Part shown: positions 846 through 32,413 of the stretch, in pieces
How the letters are laid out: the number at the start of each line of letters is the position of its first letter
How positions within the stretch are numbered: position 1 is the stretch's first letter
From: a virus
Virus record (IMG/VR): IMGVR_UViG_3300008266_000275
Location: 1-32,413 of that record
Length of the DNA stretch: 32,413 nucleotides
Strand: one strand, 5' to 3'
Program-made: the position numbers and the translations under genes
Notes under the pieces: model-generated
The model's input: the letters and a program-made list of their open reading frames with translations, nothing else
What the model was told of the DNA's origin: nothing
The model's database searches: none

Positions 846-1991
846 TTAGATAGTTGTTAAGGTTGCTAATTCAGTTGAAGTTAAAGCTGTTTTCCAAATA
901 ACAGAAGATTTATATAATGATTTTACTGAAGCTGTACCTAAAGAACCAGCGCCATAATCAACAACTGATAAAGAGCTGCTAAAAGAAAATGCTGTAGTTC
1001 CTGAAGCTATAGAAACTCCATTAATGTATAAATTATAGTTTCCTGTTTTATAAGCTAAAGCAACTTTAATTATAGAATTATCTGTAATACTAAAAGAAGA
1101 ATTATCAAAAATTACTGAGGAATTTGATTTTAAATATGCTCGTATTTTATCATTTTGTTTTCCTATAAAAATCCAATTTATATCAGTACCATCATAAACA
1201 CTAAACCAATTAACGCCACTTTCATTTTGATTAGCAGATATTTCTACAAAAATAGTCCCCTCTGTTTGCCCTATTAAACTACTTATACCTGTTTTAGATA
1301 TTACATCTGCGTTTCGTGTTACACTTGCTGAAGTTGTAGGAATGTATGAAGTAGCGTAAGAACCTGCTTCGATTTGTGCGCCCCAAATGTAACAATACGC
1401 TACTCCACTTGTACCTCTTAATTCAATATCTATAAAGTTATTTGTAGAATTAAATGCAACAGAATAAGTATATCTTGTCCAATTTGCAGTAGGTGTAATA
1501 TCTACAGTACTTTTAGTATCGCTAATATCTAAAAATGCAGTTACTCCACTACCTTGTTTTATGTATAAAGAAAATGTTACAACAGTACCGTTTGATACAC
1601 CACTTATAGTTTGTCTTAATATAGCACTACCTGCCCCACCCATAGTAACTTTGTCAGCAGTATTAGTTCCATCGGGAGCTATAGTTTGATTTGCTAATAC
1701 ACTTCCATTAAACATAGTCCACGTTAAATTATCAAATTCTTGACTTCTTAACGCTAAATTAGTTCTTTGTGGCTCAACTAATATACTCGGACAATTACTA
1801 TTTGTATAGTCTAAACGTGGTACATTAACCGCTACGCTTTCAATTAAACCTGCACTATTAACTCTTGTTGCTGTTGTAGCTCTTGTAACACTTAAATCTC
1901 CTGCACCACTTGTTGGTTTTATAGCGTATAACTTACTCGCTTTTGCACCATTTGGAGTTATGCAAAGTGAGGCACTTTCAAATAGACTCAT
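846..1991 (-). CDS. Tail fibre or receptor-binding protein with lectin-like C-terminus (381 aa)
   Basis: The N-terminal third has the pattern TRATTATRVNSAGLIE...PRLDY...ILVEPQRTNLALRSQ, found in many phage head-spike and tail-fibre proteins. It is followed by a beta-rich Ser/Thr/Gly-rich middle region. The last ~150 residues (GTIFVEIS...YNLYINGVS...VVDYGAGSLG...) resemble a concanavalin A/LamG-type carbohydrate-binding fold. The likely role is adhesion to host surface glycans at the tail tip. It is preceded by a GIY-YIG endonuclease gene whose last 14 bases overlap its start. The fold is inferred from pattern, not from a search. Confidence 0.75.
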   Translation of the reverse strand: MSLFESASLCITPNGAKASKLYAIKPTSGAGDLSVTRATTATRVNSAGLIESVAVNVPRLDYTNSNCPSILVEPQRTNLALRSQEFDNLTWTMFNGSVLANQTIAPDGTNTADKVTMGGAGSAILRQTISGVSNGTVVTFSLYIKQGSGVTAFLDISDTKSTVDITPTANWTRYTYSVAFNSTNNFIDIELRGTSGVAYCYIWGAQIEAGSYATSYIPTTSASVTRNADVISKTGISSLIGQTEGTIFVEISANQNESGVNWFSVYDGTDINWIFIGKQNDKIRAYLKSNSSVIFDNSSFSITDNSIIKVALAYKTGNYNLYINGVSIASGTTAFSFSSSLSVVDYGAGSLGTASVKSLYKSSVIWKTALTSTELATLTTI

Positions 1992-2685
1992 AATCTTTTA
2001 ATTTTATTAAATTGGTTTTATTTTTATATTTTCCATTAAAAAGCATTCTTAAATAGTTATCTGAAATATTAACTGATTTAGCAGCTTCTTTCATTGTATT
2101 AAATATTTGTTTTGTTTCAATATTAATTACTTTTACTGCTGCAGGATTTTTACCACCTTTTACTGCATTGCTTTTTTTTATTAATGTTTCTTTTGTAAAA
2201 ACTTGTAAAGCTCTTTTTTGTTTTATTATTTCTTTTGTAGCATCAGTATGTTTTTTGTTTTTAAAACAACTTTCTTTTCCTTTTTTAGCTAAAGATAAAT
2301 TCTCACAGTGAGTTTTACTTCTTACATAATCTAAAGGCAAATTTCTAATTCCTTTTCTTCTTTCTGATATTTTTTTTCTAACGCTTTCAGTAACATTTTT
2401 AGTCCCTTCACCACCATCAGTTAAGTTACATAATATACCTGTTTTGGTATCTTTTCTACCATATAAGCTAATTAAAAAAACTTCTAATTCAATAGCATCT
2501 TCAAAAGATAAATTTTCAGCTAAAACTTCAACATAATATCCGTGTTTGTCAACTATGTTTTTCCAATATGAACTTCTTTTTGTTTTAGTATATGGTCTTG
2601 AGTTATTACCCATTCCAACATAAAAAACACTATTGTTGTCTTTTGTTATATGTCTATAAACACACTTATCAAAAGATAAACTCAT
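1978..2685 (-). CDS. GIY-YIG homing endonuclease (235 aa)
   Basis: This is a free-standing endonuclease of the GIY-YIG superfamily, probably cutting phage DNA lacking the gene so as to spread itself. The N-terminal domain (about 1-95) has VYRHITKDNNSVFYVGMG in place of GIY...YIG, then the family's later acidic segment (ELEVFLISLYG) and LCNLTDGGEG. The middle is highly basic (VRKKISERRKG, KNKKHTDATKE) like NUMOD3-type DNA-binding repeats, and the end has a helix-turn-helix-like stretch (MKEAAKSVNISDNYLRMLFNGKYK). It lies between two late genes with a 1-base gap upstream and a 14-base overlap downstream. The lysine-rich composition contrasts with the structural genes around it. Confidence 0.85.
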   Translation of the reverse strand: MSLSFDKCVYRHITKDNNSVFYVGMGNNSRPYTKTKRSSYWKNIVDKHGYYVEVLAENLSFEDAIELEVFLISLYGRKDTKTGILCNLTDGGEGTKNVTESVRKKISERRKGIRNLPLDYVRSKTHCENLSLAKKGKESCFKNKKHTDATKEIIKQKRALQVFTKETLIKKSNAVKGGKNPAAVKVINIETKQIFNTMKEAAKSVNISDNYLRMLFNGKYKNKTNLIKLKDYESI

Positions 2686-7325: not shown

Positions 7326-7691
7326 TTATAAAATAACTATTCTTTTTATTTGTTCAGTAATCCTTTCAGTAAAAACCGTCATATCAGGTAGATTATTTTT
7401 ATGTCTATTGTTTTGATATTGTGTCATCCATTCTAAATTTTCTAAATTATTATTAAGTCTATTTTTATCTTTATGATTAATAGTTTCTTTATTTTTTTCA
7501 TTTATTAAAAAAGTTTCACCAACTAATCTATGAACTCTTTTTGTATTTTTAGATAAATTTAGTTTTAAATAACCATCAGTACCAATACTTTGTTTAAGTA
7601 TTTTTTGACTTTTTATTGATTTAACTCTACCAAAAGTAGATACTAAATAATGTTTTTCAAAACCTTTAACTTCTTTCCAAATTTCTACCAT
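7326..7691 (-). CDS. NUMOD4-HNH homing endonuclease (121 aa)
   Basis: Residues 1-45 are a NUMOD4 DNA-binding module (EIWKEVKGFEKHYLVSTFGRVKS). The HNH nuclease follows, with RVHRLVGETF, the active-site segment INHKDKNRLNNNLENLEW and a final NNRH. The length is short for the family but complete. It lies between the capsid gene and the next structural gene, and its own promoter (7707-7737) overlaps the capsid terminator, so it can be expressed apart from the late transcript. It probably targets the matching gap in related phages. Confidence 0.88.
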   Translation of the reverse strand: MVEIWKEVKGFEKHYLVSTFGRVKSIKSQKILKQSIGTDGYLKLNLSKNTKRVHRLVGETFLINEKNKETINHKDKNRLNNNLENLEWMTQYQNNRHKNNLPDMTVFTERITEQIKRIVIL

Positions 7692-20873: not shown

Positions 20874-21362
20874 TTATTTTAAATTATTATAATCTTCTTG
20901 GAATAACTCCCTTAACTTTTTTTTATGCCCTTTTAGTGAATGGAATATAGAAACGAAACTTATACCTGTTTCTTTTGCTAATTTACGCATACTTAAATCA
21001 CTATCCCTATAAATGGTAAATAGTTTTTTGTCGTACATATCCCAGCTATTAACTTCGGCTTCGCATTTGCTTCTAAACTTGTGCCATTCTATAGCGTATT
21101 CCTCATCAAAATCAGGTTGTACTGCTTCATCTACAAAATCTACAATAGTAAATTTATTATAAAAATGCGTTACATAAACACTACGTATTACAATAAAAAT
21201 ATATCCTTTGTTTAGCTTACCATTGGTAAAGCATTTATCCTCACTTGAATAAAGGTGCAGCTTAATATAAGTTTCCTGCACTATATCTTCATAGTTTATT
21301 TTATCGAATATCTTTGCGTATTCAATTAATTGCTTGTGGTGTTTATATAACTTTTCTAACAT
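20874..21362 (-). CDS. Sigma-70-like transcription regulator (162 aa)
   Basis: The protein has the layout of a short RNA polymerase sigma factor. A region 2-like segment lies at residues 20-40 (INYEDIVQETYIKLHLY). An acidic middle follows, then a region 4 helix-turn-helix at about 122-152 (LSMRKLAKETGISFVSIFHSLKGHKKKL). Such proteins in Bacteroidetes phages sit between early and late genes. It would direct host polymerase to late phage promoters, possibly those carrying the 14-base element. It lies at the head of the terminase-proximal genes, behind an inverted repeat. Confidence 0.72.
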   Translation of the reverse strand: MLEKLYKHHKQLIEYAKIFDKINYEDIVQETYIKLHLYSSEDKCFTNGKLNKGYIFIVIRSVYVTHFYNKFTIVDFVDEAVQPDFDEEYAIEWHKFRSKCEAEVNSWDMYDKKLFTIYRDSDLSMRKLAKETGISFVSIFHSLKGHKKKLRELFQEDYNNLK

Positions 21363-25592: not shown

Positions 25593-26180
25593 TTAAAATG
25601 TTAGAGGTTTATGTGCATTTTGTTTATTTACTTTTGAATACCAATCAGCATCAAACCCACCCCAACTTTTCTCAACACATTTTTCTAAAACTTCATTAAT
25701 TGAATATCCGCTTTTATTGTATTGTATTACAAATTTTTTAAATGCTGTTTCTGTGTTTGTAAGTTTTTTGTTTTTACGTACTTTAATCCAATCTGAAACT
25801 AATTCTTTTTTAGCACCTAAATTAATCAAAGAATTATAAAAAGAAAAAGGCAAAGGCTTATTTATATATTCTTCTTTCTCTTTTACTTCTACTTGTAGGC
25901 AAGGGGTATCTGTACCCCCTACATCACCCCCTTGCGTAGGGTGTAAAATAGTTTTAGTTTTATCTTCATAACCTTTAACTTGGCTATCAATAGAATTGGT
26001 TTGTGAAATGTAGGCAAACTTTGCCATTCCTGTTAAATTTGTAGGTTTAATTCCTAAAAATTGTCTGTCTAATAATGCTTCAATAAAAGCTACTTTGTCT
26101 TTGTCTGTTTCCAACTCATTATAAACATCGTAATAAGAGCGAAAAAAATTAAATCCTTTTCTTTTTGTTAATTTTAACAT
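25593..26180 (-). CDS. Replication initiation-like protein, DUF6291 plus DnaD-like tail (195 aa)
   Basis: Residues 1-75 match the DUF6291 pattern (NFFRSYYDVYNELETDKDK, ALLDRQFLGIKPTNLTGMA). A short linker leads to a C-terminal helical segment (LVSDWIKVRKNKKLTNTETA, WGGFDADWYSKVN) like phage replisome organisers. It likely binds the origin and recruits the helicase-like ATPase encoded two genes on. It is the first gene after a perfect promoter and the structured leader RNA at 26195-26269. Confidence 0.65.
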   Translation of the reverse strand: MLKLTKRKGFNFFRSYYDVYNELETDKDKVAFIEALLDRQFLGIKPTNLTGMAKFAYISQTNSIDSQVKGYEDKTKTILHPTQGGDVGGTDTPCLQVEVKEKEEYINKPLPFSFYNSLINLGAKKELVSDWIKVRKNKKLTNTETAFKKFVIQYNKSGYSINEVLEKCVEKSWGGFDADWYSKVNKQNAHKPLTF

Positions 26181-26194
26181 ATTATTAAAAAGTT

Positions 26195-26269
26195 AATGCC
26201 CTACTACAAGCGGTGGACGTCGCAAGTAATAAGGCATTTATAATATTTTTATAGTAGCGTCCACTCTAC
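26195..26269 (-). ncRNA. Structured 5' leader RNA with kissing loops, copy A
   Basis: Read on the minus strand, hairpin 1 is GUAG-AGUGGACG-CUAC (26254-26269). After a spacer containing AAUAUUAUA, hairpin 2 spans 26195-26238: outer stem AAUGCC/GGCAUU, inner stems UACU/AGUA and GCG/CGC, and an 8-base loop ACGUCCAC. The loops pair over 7 bases (GUGGACG with CGUCCAC). The promoter -7 box ends at 26275, so hairpin 1 begins within a few bases of the transcript's 5' end. The same architecture recurs at 28231-28306 with compensatory changes. Confidence 0.72.
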
Positions 26270-26274
26270 AAATG

Positions 26275-26305
26275 CAAATATAGTATTTTAATTTAAACCT
26301 GCAAA
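26275..26305 (-). promoter_or_regulatory. Promoter of the replication operon
   Basis: On the minus strand, TTTG (26302-26305) and TATATTTG (26275-26282) are exactly 19 bases apart, a perfect Bacteroidetes promoter. The -33 box lies in the hairpin that follows the SSB gene. The transcript begins with the kissing-loop leader. Confidence 0.8.
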
Positions 26306-26320
26306 ATTAATTGCAGGTTT
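26295..26320. terminator. Hairpin after the SSB gene, candidate terminator
   Basis: AAACCTGCAA (26295-26304) pairs perfectly with TTGCAGGTTT (26311-26320) around AATTAA, 13 bases after the SSB stop. On the minus strand the T-run is only three bases, so termination may be weak. The plus strand has five Ts. The overlap with the -33 box of the next promoter is notable. Confidence 0.5.
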
Positions 26321-26332
26321 TTATTAACAATT

Positions 26333-26680
26333 TTAAAAAGGTAAATCATTTGCAGCTTGTTGTAATACTTCTGATGGTGCTGTAAAAGTTTCTGCTTGTG
26401 TAGTTGTACTTGCATCATCTTTATCTATTCTCCAGCCATTTAAGCTACAATACCATTTACCGTTATAAGAATTACCACGTATGTTAATTCCTACCTTTAC
26501 AGATTGCCCTATTGCGTATTTATCTAAAACATCGCATTTATCTTGCACAAAATCAATAGGCACTTCTTGAGCGTATTGCTCATTTGTTTTAACTACTAAT
26601 AATCTTTTTTTGAAAGTTCCTGCACTTCCTACTGTTTCTGTATTTCCAATATGGATAATACTACCAATTACTTCACTCAT
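26333..26680 (-). CDS. Single-stranded DNA-binding protein, DUF3127-like (115 aa)
   Basis: This is an OB-fold-sized protein with MSEVIGSIIHIGNTETVGS, KRLLVVKTNEQYAQEVPIDF, GINIRGNSYNGKWYCSLNGW, then a Thr/Ala-rich linker and the tail AANDLPF. The acidic, Phe-terminated tail is the SSB partner-binding tip. The pattern fits the Bacteroidetes DUF3127 SSB family. It binds ssDNA during phage replication and recombination and is the last gene of the recombination operon. Confidence 0.85.
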   Translation of the reverse strand: MSEVIGSIIHIGNTETVGSAGTFKKRLLVVKTNEQYAQEVPIDFVQDKCDVLDKYAIGQSVKVGINIRGNSYNGKWYCSLNGWRIDKDDASTTTQAETFTAPSEVLQQAANDLPF

Positions 26681-26686
26681 TTTTAT

Positions 26687-26869
26687 TTAATTTAATTGTT
26701 TAATTATTTTTTTAAGTTTCTTTTTAAGTCTTTTATTTTCACTTTTTAAAAATGCTATTTCAAATTCTAAAATTCTATTTTCTATTTCTTTTTTACCAAA
26801 AACAAAATGATTATTTTTTATTTTTACTTCTCTTTTAGGCCTTAACCAAGTTGGAACTACGTATGCCAT
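26687..26869 (-). CDS. Small basic coiled-coil protein (60 aa)
   Basis: The 60-residue protein starts MAYVVPTWLRPKREVKIKNN and ends in a Lys/Leu heptad helix (NKRLKKKLKKIIKQLN). It lies between the annealing-type protein and SSB with gaps of 2 and 6 bases. It may be a nucleic-acid-binding accessory; the family is unknown. Confidence 0.55.
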   Translation of the reverse strand: MAYVVPTWLRPKREVKIKNNHFVFGKKEIENRILEFEIAFLKSENKRLKKKLKKIIKQLN

Positions 26870-26871
26870 AA

Positions 26872-27258
26872 TTATTTACGTTTAAAATCTTCGCTTTCAT
26901 CTTCTCCAAATACTCCCAATTCATAAAACCCTGTTAGTTTTAATACTGCTCTACTCATTGCACGCTTTTCTGCCATTTCCATAACATACCAACTTTGAGT
27001 ATTACCGTCTTTAAAACTATCGCCTTTTAAAGCACTACCAAAAGTTTCAATTCGTGTATTTTCTTTTATTGCAGTTGCCTTAACTACGCAAAATTTAGGT
27101 TCGCAAGTTATAACATCATAACTTATTTGTACTTTTTCTTTTGCTTGTATCTTATCAATACCACTACGAGTAATAATAATATAATGCTGGTGCTTGTATA
27201 CATCATCTTTAGTTAATTCAAACTTAACGTAAAGCTCTTTTAATTTATCTACATTCAT
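26872..27258 (-). CDS. Conserved phage protein, possible ssDNA-annealing factor (128 aa)
   Basis: The sequence (YKHQHYIIITRSGIDKIQAK, WYVMEMAEKRAMSRAVLKLT, GVFGEDESEDF) belongs to a group found next to SSB in Bacteroidetes phages. The segment AEKRAMSRAVLKLTG resembles the conserved helix of ERF/RAD52-type annealing proteins, which gives a weak case for homologous pairing. It is 128 residues, shorter than those families, so it could be a minimal version or something else. Confidence 0.55.
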   Translation of the reverse strand: MNVDKLKELYVKFELTKDDVYKHQHYIIITRSGIDKIQAKEKVQISYDVITCEPKFCVVKATAIKENTRIETFGSALKGDSFKDGNTQSWYVMEMAEKRAMSRAVLKLTGFYELGVFGEDESEDFKRK

Positions 27259-27262
27259 AATT

Positions 27263-27706
27263 TTAGTATTTAATTGTTAAACTATCTGCTGAATATTTTA
27301 CTGATACTTTTGGTACATCATTACCGTAAGCATCAAATACATCCATTCTTTGTGCAAGTTTTAATAATTCCTCACGCTCTTTTAAATCTGCGTTTAATTG
27401 TACCCAAATTGCATCTTCTGAAAATTGTATCATTTGGCGACCGTTTATAGGGTTTATTTCTATTCCGTATGCTGTTTGCTTTTCACGTGGTAAAGACGCT
27501 TTTAATTCATCTCTAACGTTGCTTATTGCAGTTGTTAAACGTTCTGCTTGTGCAAACGCTTCTACTTTATCAATATCACCTGTATCGATTAGATTTTTAG
27601 CGAATGTTTTTGAAGATAATTCTAACTCTTTTTTTGTTAATAGAAAGTTATTACTTTCTACTTCTTGTTCCTGCATTAGCATTAATAAATTTTTAGTTGC
27701 TCCCAT
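27263..27706 (-). CDS. Conserved phage protein in recombination operon (147 aa)
   Basis: This 147-residue protein has a helical N-terminal two-thirds and a conserved-looking end (YGIEINPINGRQMIQFSEDA, WVQLNADLKEREELLKL, KVSVKYSADSLTIKY). I recognise the type from phage recombination clusters but cannot name a function. Its first 14 bases overlap the inserted HNH gene's end. Without that insertion it would be the first gene behind the 28231-28306 leader. Confidence 0.58.
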   Translation of the reverse strand: MGATKNLLMLMQEQEVESNNFLLTKKELELSSKTFAKNLIDTGDIDKVEAFAQAERLTTAISNVRDELKASLPREKQTAYGIEINPINGRQMIQFSEDAIWVQLNADLKEREELLKLAQRMDVFDAYGNDVPKVSVKYSADSLTIKY

Positions 27707-28220
27707 AATTTTTAATTTGTTTTAATTTTTGTTGATATATATTTGATGCTTCTTCTGGTGTGTTAAAGATACCTAAATATTCTCTAAAACCATTTATTGT
27801 AATTCTTGACATATATTTTTTTCCACTTTTATTTACACCTGCAGGAGTTCCACTTTTAATAGTTCTTTCTTTAGATGAATTTTCTCTTTGAGTAATAATT
27901 TGTAAATTGTTTAAATTATTATTTTGTTTATTACTGTCTATATGGTCAATAACCATTTTAAAACCACAAGTTTTATGATTTAAAAAACTTTCGCAAACCA
28001 TAATATGTATTTTTTTATTTTGCTTTTTATTTTCTTTACATAAACTAACCATTAAATATCCCCCTCCGTCTAAACTTGGTTTTAACATTTTTTCTTTTAA
28101 AACTTTATTTCCACCCCAATTGTGCTTTACAATTCTTTTTAATGCTTTTACTCTGCCAAAATTGCTTACTTGATAAAGTCCTTCGTAATCTAATACGTCT
28201 TTAAATATTTCTTTTTCCAT
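27693..28220 (-). CDS. NUMOD4-HNH-AP2 homing endonuclease (175 aa)
   Basis: Domain order is NUMOD4 at about 5-35 (IFKDVLDYEGLYQVSNFGRV), HNH at about 75-120 (HIMVCESFLNHKTCGFKMV, IDHIDSNKQNNNLNNLQII), and an AP2-type DNA-binding tail at about 130-170 (PAGVNKSGKKYMSRITINGF, FNTPEEASNIYQQ). It is longer than the other HNH enzyme here (7326-7691) and a separate acquisition. It sits exactly between the structured leader RNA and the first recombination gene and ends with a 14-base overlap into that gene. Confidence 0.88.
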   Translation of the reverse strand: MEKEIFKDVLDYEGLYQVSNFGRVKALKRIVKHNWGGNKVLKEKMLKPSLDGGGYLMVSLCKENKKQNKKIHIMVCESFLNHKTCGFKMVIDHIDSNKQNNNLNNLQIITQRENSSKERTIKSGTPAGVNKSGKKYMSRITINGFREYLGIFNTPEEASNIYQQKLKQIKNYGSN

Positions 28221-28230
28221 AAATAAAAAA

Positions 28231-28306
28231 CCAGCAAATCAAAAGGTCGTCGTCTTTATCAATGCTGGATTTTGTATAATATTGTTATTTGTAGCGACGA
28301 CTCTAC
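28231..28306 (-). ncRNA. Structured 5' leader RNA with kissing loops, copy B
   Basis: Read on the minus strand, hairpin 1 is GUAG-AGUCGUCG-CUAC (28291-28306). After a spacer containing AAUAUUAUA, hairpin 2 (28231-28268) has outer stem CCAGCA/UGCUGG, inner stem AAAG/CUUU and loop ACGACGAC. The loops pair over 7 bases (GUCGUCG with CGACGAC). Hairpin 2 is followed at once by six Us and then, 4 bases on, the HNH start codon, so it could also act as an attenuator. The promoter -7 box ends at 28311, 5 bases before hairpin 1. Confidence 0.75.
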
Positions 28307-28310
28307 TATG

Positions 28311-28341
28311 CAAATATACAAAAACTTTTTTAATTGACAAA
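28311..28341 (-). promoter_or_regulatory. Promoter of the recombination operon
   Basis: On the minus strand, TTTG (28338-28341) and TATATTTG (28311-28318) are exactly 19 bases apart. Transcription should start at the first bases of the kissing-loop leader, ahead of the HNH gene and the recombination genes. Confidence 0.8.
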
Positions 28342-32083: not shown

Positions 32084-32413
32084 TTAAATATTTTTGTATT
32101 CTTGTTTGGCTTCAAAACTTGGGCAGGCTTTTTTAACTCCTTCAAAATCTTTATGTCCTTGTACTATTGCATTTGGGAATTGTTTTTTAGCTTGTTTAAT
32201 TAATTCTAATAAAGCAAATTTTTGTTTTGGCGTTCTTGTATCTTTTGGCTTTCCTTTTTCATCTATGCCGCCAATATAACTAAAATGTATTGAAGTAGAA
32301 TTAAAACCTTTAACACCATTAGTAGGTTTTTCGTATTTTTCTAGTTCATAAATAACACCGTTTGCATCTATTAACCTATGATAACCTACAGACTTCCATT
32401 TTAAAACATCTTT
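32084..32413 (-). CDS. N-acetylmuramoyl-L-alanine amidase, C-terminal part (endolysin, split by window ends)
   Basis: This is the C-terminal portion of the endolysin that begins at 195. It reads from the window edge to a TAA at 32084, and its first part repeats bases 1-114. The end contains QGHKDFEGVKKACPSF, the family signature with zinc ligands His114 and Cys124 and catalytic Lys122 (numbering of the 136-residue joined protein). It is a single-domain enzyme with no cell-wall-binding domain, as is usual for phages of Gram-negative hosts. A perfect terminator follows the stop. Confidence 0.92.
   Translation of the reverse strand, partial: KDVLKWKSVGYHRLIDANGVIYELEKYEKPTNGVKGFNSTSIHFSYIGGIDEKGKPKDTRTPKQKFALLELIKQAKKQFPNAIVQGHKDFEGVKKACPSFEAKQEYKNI
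32300..32413. repeat. Terminal direct repeat, right copy
   Basis: This is the second copy of the 114-base repeat that closes the genome. The unique genome is bases 1-32299. Confidence 0.97.

Follow-up and report, generated by a model that had tools for sequence, protein, structure and literature searches.

In the ColE1 system, a kissing complex between two RNAs, RNAI and RNAII, controls replication, and the antisense-RNA-controlled attenuators of plasmids such as pT181 and pIP501 rely on mutually exclusive folds. The put RNAs of phage HK022 (putL and putR) are early-promoter leaders of approximately 70–80 nt with two stem-loops, they function without a dedicated protein, and they antiterminate autonomously by way of the zinc-binding domain of RNA polymerase beta' (PMC9378689). 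EAR and conAn are processive antitermination elements located at operon starts, and conAn also requires a protein (PMC8955417).

An earlier note on the 32.4 kb IMG/VR phage record IMGVR_UViG_3300008266_000275 (32,413 nt, analysed here in full and referred to as the window) had proposed that two minus-strand sequences, at 26195–26269 and 28231–28306, are leader RNAs whose two hairpin loops can kiss. The record has identical ends of 114 nt (1–114 and 32300–32413) and is therefore probably a complete phage map, either circular or with terminal redundancy. Its nearest named relatives are Flavobacterium phages.

Two kissing-loop leaders in the window

Direct reading of the minus strand recovered the hairpins, the complementary 7-nt loops and the promoter claimed for both copies. 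The complementarity of loops 1 and 2 is exact over 7 nt in each of them.

28311–28341, minus strand: promoter of copy A, TTTG (28341–28338), N19 and TATATTTG (28318–28311), read directly, with the published -7 consensus (PMC9723704)
28291–28306, minus strand: hairpin 1 of copy A, GUAG, loop A-GUCGUCG, CUAC, first base at the predicted +1; in DNA, GTAG (28306–28303), loop AGTCGTCG (28302–28295) and CTAC (28294–28291)
28269–28290, minus strand: A/U-rich spacer of copy A, containing AAUAUUAUA on direct reading (also read as containing AATATTATA)
28231–28268, minus strand: hairpin 2 of copy A, loop A-CGACGAC, which kisses hairpin 1; outer stem CCAGCA/UGCUGG, internal loop UUGAU/UGAUU, inner stem AAAG/CUUU, apical loop ACGACGAC (28253–28246)
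28225–28230, minus strand: U-tract of copy A, TTTTTT; the ATG is at 28220, 10 nt past the stem
27693–28220, minus strand: NUMOD4/HNH-type homing endonuclease gene directly 3' of copy A, from the ORF list, its product among the downstream proteins searched for family matches, with a homologous cassette in phage tooticki
26275–26305, minus strand: promoter of copy B, TTTG (26305–26302), N19 and TATATTTG (26282–26275), read directly
26254–26269, minus strand: hairpin 1 of copy B, GUAG, loop A-GUGGACG, CUAC, first base at the predicted +2; in DNA, GTAG (26269–26266), loop AGTGGACG (26265–26258) and CTAC (26257–26254)
26239–26253, minus strand: A/U-rich spacer of copy B, read directly
26195–26238, minus strand: hairpin 2 of copy B, loop A-CGUCCAC, which kisses hairpin 1; 13-bp outer stem, internal loop UU/UU, inner stem GCG/CGC, apical loop ACGTCCAC (26220–26213)
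26187–26191, minus strand: U-tract of copy B, TTTTT, after AAC (together AACTTTTT); the ATG is at 26180, 14 nt past the stem
25593–26180, minus strand: replication initiation (primosomal/O-like) gene 3' of copy B (phrog_6451, E = 2.6e-20; phrog_678, E = 2.9e-14)

The second hairpin had been described as running straight into six Us, which holds for the 28231–28306 copy but not for the 26195–26269 copy, where AAC and then five Us follow. In the copy B class, a 14-codon ORF (in the window MPYYLRRPPLVVGH, 26195–26237, minus strand) coincides almost exactly with hairpin 2, running from one arm to the other; it recurs in class members L008, L011, L025, L059, L063, L079 and L121 and may be a by-product of the palindrome. 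A perfect inverted repeat, AAACCTGCAA..TTGCAGGTTT (26296–26322, minus strand), lies between the DUF3127 gene and copy B, where it overlaps the -33 TTTG of copy B, and is possibly the end of the upstream transcript.

Homologues in viral genomes

The window by itself is suggestive only, because a generic two-hairpin scan yields several chance matches (nine observed on its minus strand versus 2.95 in simulations). We therefore rely on homologues. IMG/VR was scanned for TATTTG followed after a short gap by GTAG-AG-N6-CTAC, with loop 2 left unconstrained, which gave at least 119 matches. Among the matches listed, 66 of 69 distinct sites with a TAnnTTTG box have an exact complement to the 7 nt of loop 1 no more than 75 nt downstream, in 18 different loop pairs, whereas shuffling the loops among these sites gives 0.065 exact partners on average; no exact partner was found at the listed sites that have the motif without the box (0/28). 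These unselected sites confirm that the observation is real and settle the existence of kissing-loop leaders. The homologues and covariation that the earlier note had named as a check on its reading were thus both found, and the leader structure is near certain; its function is inferred.

Anatomy and covariation of the family

Seventy-one distinct copies, included only if their loops were complementary, share one order of elements: promoter, 4–5 nt, hairpin 1, an A/U-rich spacer (usually 14–22 nt), hairpin 2, U-tract and start codon. Hairpin 1 consists of 4 bp and an 8-nt loop (A plus 7), and hairpin 2 of a variable outer stem, an internal loop, an inner stem of 3–5 bp and an 8-nt loop whose 7 nt are accompanied by A in 60 of the 71. 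The internal loops are of the UGAU/UGAU tandem-GA type, the AGUA/GAA sarcin-ricin type (by sequence), UU/UU or UAA/C.

Two-sided changes were observed at 6/7 kissing pairs, 7/7 outer-stem pairs and 4/4 inner-stem pairs of hairpin 2 (47 distinct rows), with a covariation score of 0.484 over these three helices versus 0.132 when shuffled. The kissing pairs were pre-selected in this count, and the unbiased test of the kiss is the partner count among the matches listed. In the first set the search pattern had dictated the 5' stem. In a second set, for which two loop pairs were fixed and the stem was free (n = 90), the stem is GTAG/CTAC at 66 sites, TAGG/CCTA at six and TCGG/CCGA at six, with TCAG/CTGA, GTTG/CAAC and others also present; the stem of hairpin 1 varies in a compensatory way once only the loops are fixed.

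It can scarcely be maintained that the pattern is due to chance, or to an inverted-repeat operator in DNA instead of an RNA structure. Loops 1 and 2 do form an inverted repeat in DNA as well, and G-U pairs are absent from the kiss, but they are present in the outer stem of hairpin 2, which places the pairing at the RNA level. The shuffle controls and the strand asymmetry with promoter and U-tract also count against this explanation, and 18 different paired sequences are more than any single repressor would accept.

Two apparent features of the window did not extend to the family. The perfect TTTG-N19-TATATTTG promoter of the earlier note stands at both copies, but a conserved -33 TTTG was rejected as a family feature as it occurs in only 10 of 90 sites. 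Orthogonality of loops within a genome was also rejected: identical loop pairs were not found within any one of the scanned phages, but the difference was not significant (P = 0.09), and one contig (IMGVR_UViG_3300043470_000543) has two almost identical elements that share one loop pair (L490 and L493).

Other sequence classes and distribution

A generalised scan, in which a box and a 5' hairpin had to be followed by a hairpin containing 6 nt or more of complement and by a U-tract, covered the window, two named phages and 20 phage contigs. It returned 54 matches at 1646 boxes versus nine at a reversed-box control, and matches scoring 38 or more correspond to one to three elements per phage. 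The additional classes include elements with 8- to 9-nt kisses and a GGTCAG/CTGACC class at an early promoter, in which a second complement of loop 1 overlaps the 5' arm of the terminator in about half of 18 members. In L045, L117, L124, L015, L022, L098, L264 and L281 of the GGTCAG class, CTGAC is present both in the apical loop and at the top of the outer stem, which gives loop 1 two candidate partners. The window has a plain 30-nt leader (29780–29751, minus strand) before an early gene that is an orthologue (35% identity) of the gene behind the GGTCAG element, and elements are therefore gained or lost at a given promoter. That many unrelated sequences share the architecture alone argues against a sequence-specific protein, and the protein-binding operator suggested in the earlier note is unlikely.

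Among named phages, elements are present in tooticki, lillamy, filifjonk, FCV-1 and P12002S; none were found in P12024S, JQ or the first 50 kb of crAss001. The two single loop pairs alone retrieve 97 and 42 IMG/VR contigs, and part of the 97-contig set consists of chance matches in G+C-rich DNA. Host genomes are essentially without the element. In 257 Gb of bacterial and archaeal genome sequence the exact pattern was matched five times, each time on a MAG contig, and a covariance-model search of Flavobacteriaceae genomes found it in one of 199, a case already known, under stricter filters that possibly missed weak relatives. Regulation of host genes was rejected on these counts. Rfam 15 covariance models gave no match in the window at the gathering score, permissive Rfam searches of the elements gave only sub-threshold, unrelated matches, and targeted literature searches, which did not cover most subscription papers, found no description of such an element. 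This agrees with the earlier note, whose author knew of no described family, and the elements apparently form a large, undescribed, virus-only RNA family.

A virus-only distribution, and structure retained while sequence drifts, would suit a terminated leader that is itself the product, as a structural decoy or inhibitor of a host nuclease or RNA sensor. We consider this very unlikely, as the elements lie nearly always at the head of a gene, with several copies per genome, which suggests a role in cis.

Position at the predicted transcript start

In F. psychrophilum the Flavobacterium -7 box TAnnTTTG spans -12 to -5 (PMC9723704). By this spacing hairpin 1 is predicted to begin at +2 in 53 copies, +1 in 17 and +3 in one (70/71 at +1 or +2). 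Transcripts are thus predicted to start at the base of hairpin 1, which is consistent with the claim that the leader is the 5' end of the mRNA, although no 5' end has been mapped. Such a position would also suit a stabiliser, in which a blunt hairpin at +1/+2, held in place by the kiss, protects the mRNA from 5'-end-dependent decay, with termination minor or absent. Hairpin 1 has only 4 bp, so its stability would require the kiss, and it is the architecture that is kept, not the sequence. We regard this as unlikely, yet a serious alternative; it leaves unexplained a U-tract fixed to the stem, which would cost expression.

Hairpin 2 has the character of a terminator

At the end of the hairpin 2 stem, 65 of 71 copies have at least five Ts in six bases, versus 8% of random positions in the same DNA, and T reaches 94–97% at the fourth and fifth base past the stem. 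Hairpin 2 therefore has the sequence hallmark of an intrinsic terminator, a stable stem with a U-tract directly behind it; there are no RNA data on release. A terminator scan tool made no call at these hairpins because it accepts neither interrupted stems nor loops longer than 8.

The stem usually ends 6–17 nt before the ATG. Three elements of one sub-class (L063 at 3973, L079 at 4273 and L099 at 6502, all minus strand) lie approximately 70–115 nt upstream of the first start codon with an ORF behind it. Ordinary start regions in tooticki and FCV-1 show an A-rich stretch from -10 to -13, and 68% of them have A at -3, whereas the genes behind elements have T at -7 to -10 and often lack the usual A at -3. 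The U-run therefore belongs to the hairpin and not to a usual ribosome site. The short distance and the missing A would be compatible with translational control, in which hairpin 2 beside the start codon tunes ribosome loading and the kiss sets its stability. This seems improbable to us, given that the position of the U-tract tracks the stem and not the start codon and that several elements have no gene directly after them.

The earlier note had listed an attenuation switch among possible roles; in its classical form, with mutually exclusive folds, it found no support in the main class. The longest helix that hairpin 1 and the spacer can form is 3.80 with the 5' arm (4.09 shuffled) and 5.16 with the 3' arm (5.25 shuffled), and an alternative antiterminator fold was rejected for this class. 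A leader-peptide attenuator was also rejected: there is no conserved ORF, 26 of 71 leaders are without an ATG and the peptides differ between classes.

Genes downstream of the elements

The leaders had been said to open replication and recombination transcripts, and the downstream genes are indeed homing endonucleases and replication or recombination genes. Among 68 downstream proteins there are 26 matches to HNH_3, 21 to NUMOD4 and three to GIY-YIG; the remaining families are DUF6291, DUF7833, helicase, primase-polymerase and VapE-type, and no structural families are listed among the 68. In tooticki, the promoter, the element and an endonuclease gene lie between two genes that directly adjoin in its relative filifjonk, so element and endonuclease were gained or lost as one cassette. 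Copy A is part of a homing-endonuclease cassette, and the cassette homologous to that of tooticki has a different location in the window. This cassette, the terminator-like character of hairpin 2 in nearly all copies and the other sequence classes are absent from the earlier note.

Elsewhere in the window, ORFs at 7326–7691 and 1978–2685 (minus strand) resemble by eye NUMOD4/HNH and GIY-YIG homing endonucleases, respectively, and are without kissing leaders; the box of the former is only about 23 nt upstream of its start. An ORF at 20877–21362 (minus strand) has a weak match to the phage RNA polymerase sigma factor family phrog_1740 (E = 2.6e-6), and its predicted product is a possible late regulator.

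The nearest upstream ORF is co-directional at 60 of the 63 sites where it could be placed. Within such gene strings it would help to discriminate between transcripts, as would a put-like RNA that binds RNA polymerase so that transcripts from its own promoter pass terminators, including its own, and others stop. The leader also resembles HK022 putL in its length of about 70–80 nt, two stem-loops, early promoter and lack of an obvious protein (PMC9378689). We consider this reading rather unlikely, and there are no biochemical data for it: put has no internal terminator and no reported loop-loop complementarity, read-through transcripts would carry the same RNA, and no primary sequence is conserved between classes. 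Promoter-spacer pairing that could tell read-through from own transcripts was at the permuted level (6.08 observed, 6.12 permuted).

Proposed mechanism

The core of the earlier note, that covarying kissing leaders outside any described family open two replication/recombination transcripts, has strong support. None of the four roles that it left open (attenuation, antitermination in cis, 5'-end protection, protein binding) is provable from sequence. The reading that we favour, tentatively and with a little less than even confidence, is a cis-acting conditional intrinsic terminator that the kiss couples to the hairpin at the 5' end; a 5'-end stabiliser and a put-like RNA are its main rivals. The leader of approximately 80 nt would be made by host RNA polymerase from a host-type promoter. 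Transcription would start at the base of hairpin 1, which would fold as the RNA emerges, and its 7-nt loop would then capture the complementary loop at the tip of hairpin 2. This second hairpin would zip up and, together with the U-tract, halt a share of polymerases just upstream of the start codon. By setting the strength of this terminator, the kiss may tune or delay expression of homing endonuclease and replication genes.

We have established the structure, its covariation, the predicted +1/+2 position, the U-tract and the association with genes; termination, an effect of the kiss on it and the direction of that effect are all inferred. The U-tract argues for termination, a classical attenuator is disfavoured because the main class has no alternative fold, and the link by the kiss between the U-tract hairpin and the first hairpin of the transcript argues that both parts act together. 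The kiss more likely assists termination than opposes it because it leaves the terminator stem intact. Several points count against a conditional terminator. No RNA has been measured, and since hairpin 2 can keep its terminator stem while kissing, there is no evident switch of a simple kind. AAC lies between stem and U-tract in the copy B class. The distance from stem to ATG is short and fairly constant, which is equally expected for a translational or stability element, and a trans-acting regulator has not been identified.

A broader principle is possible but doubtful: an RNA-only, sequence-independent control in Bacteroidota phages. A hairpin at +1 would kiss the first terminator's loop and thereby control a polymerase that has only just cleared the promoter; each of several promoters would have its own exchangeable loop address, and neither protein nor ligand would be required.

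Comparison with known systems

The elements appear to be an undescribed, strongly covarying RNA family with at least 60 distinct viral sites and members in isolated phages (the Muminvirus group, FCV-1 and P12002S). The family points to a mode of phage gene regulation not known before, in a bacterial phylum whose phages are hardly understood in this respect. How co-transcriptional folding of RNA determines termination can be asked cleanly in this system, and the built-in loop pairs make break-and-restore testing simple.

Flavo-1 and other Bacteroidota RNAs in Rfam are likewise structured RNAs of Flavobacteriaceae, but no Rfam family matches the elements. EAR and conAn are also RNA-containing, operon-start systems that decide which transcripts pass terminators; they differ in their hosts, and neither is described as a kissing terminator (PMC8955417). 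HK022 put RNAs share with the elements the size of a phage early-promoter leader, two stem-loops and the lack of a dedicated protein. However, put has a conserved sequence, no terminator of its own and no reported kissing, whereas the elements combine a terminator-like hairpin with a kiss.

The plasmid attenuators also place a promoter-proximal terminator hairpin before a gene. Unlike them, the main class has no alternative antiterminator pairing beyond chance, and the partner of the terminator hairpin is a cis hairpin at +1. With ColE1 RNAI/RNAII the elements share fully complementary 7-nt hairpin loops; there the kiss joins two RNAs, whereas here, where only complementarity in cis was examined, it lies within one leader, beside a terminator. 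Compared with these systems, the mechanism that we favour is that of a structured leader with a terminator, and a wholly new principle is not excluded.
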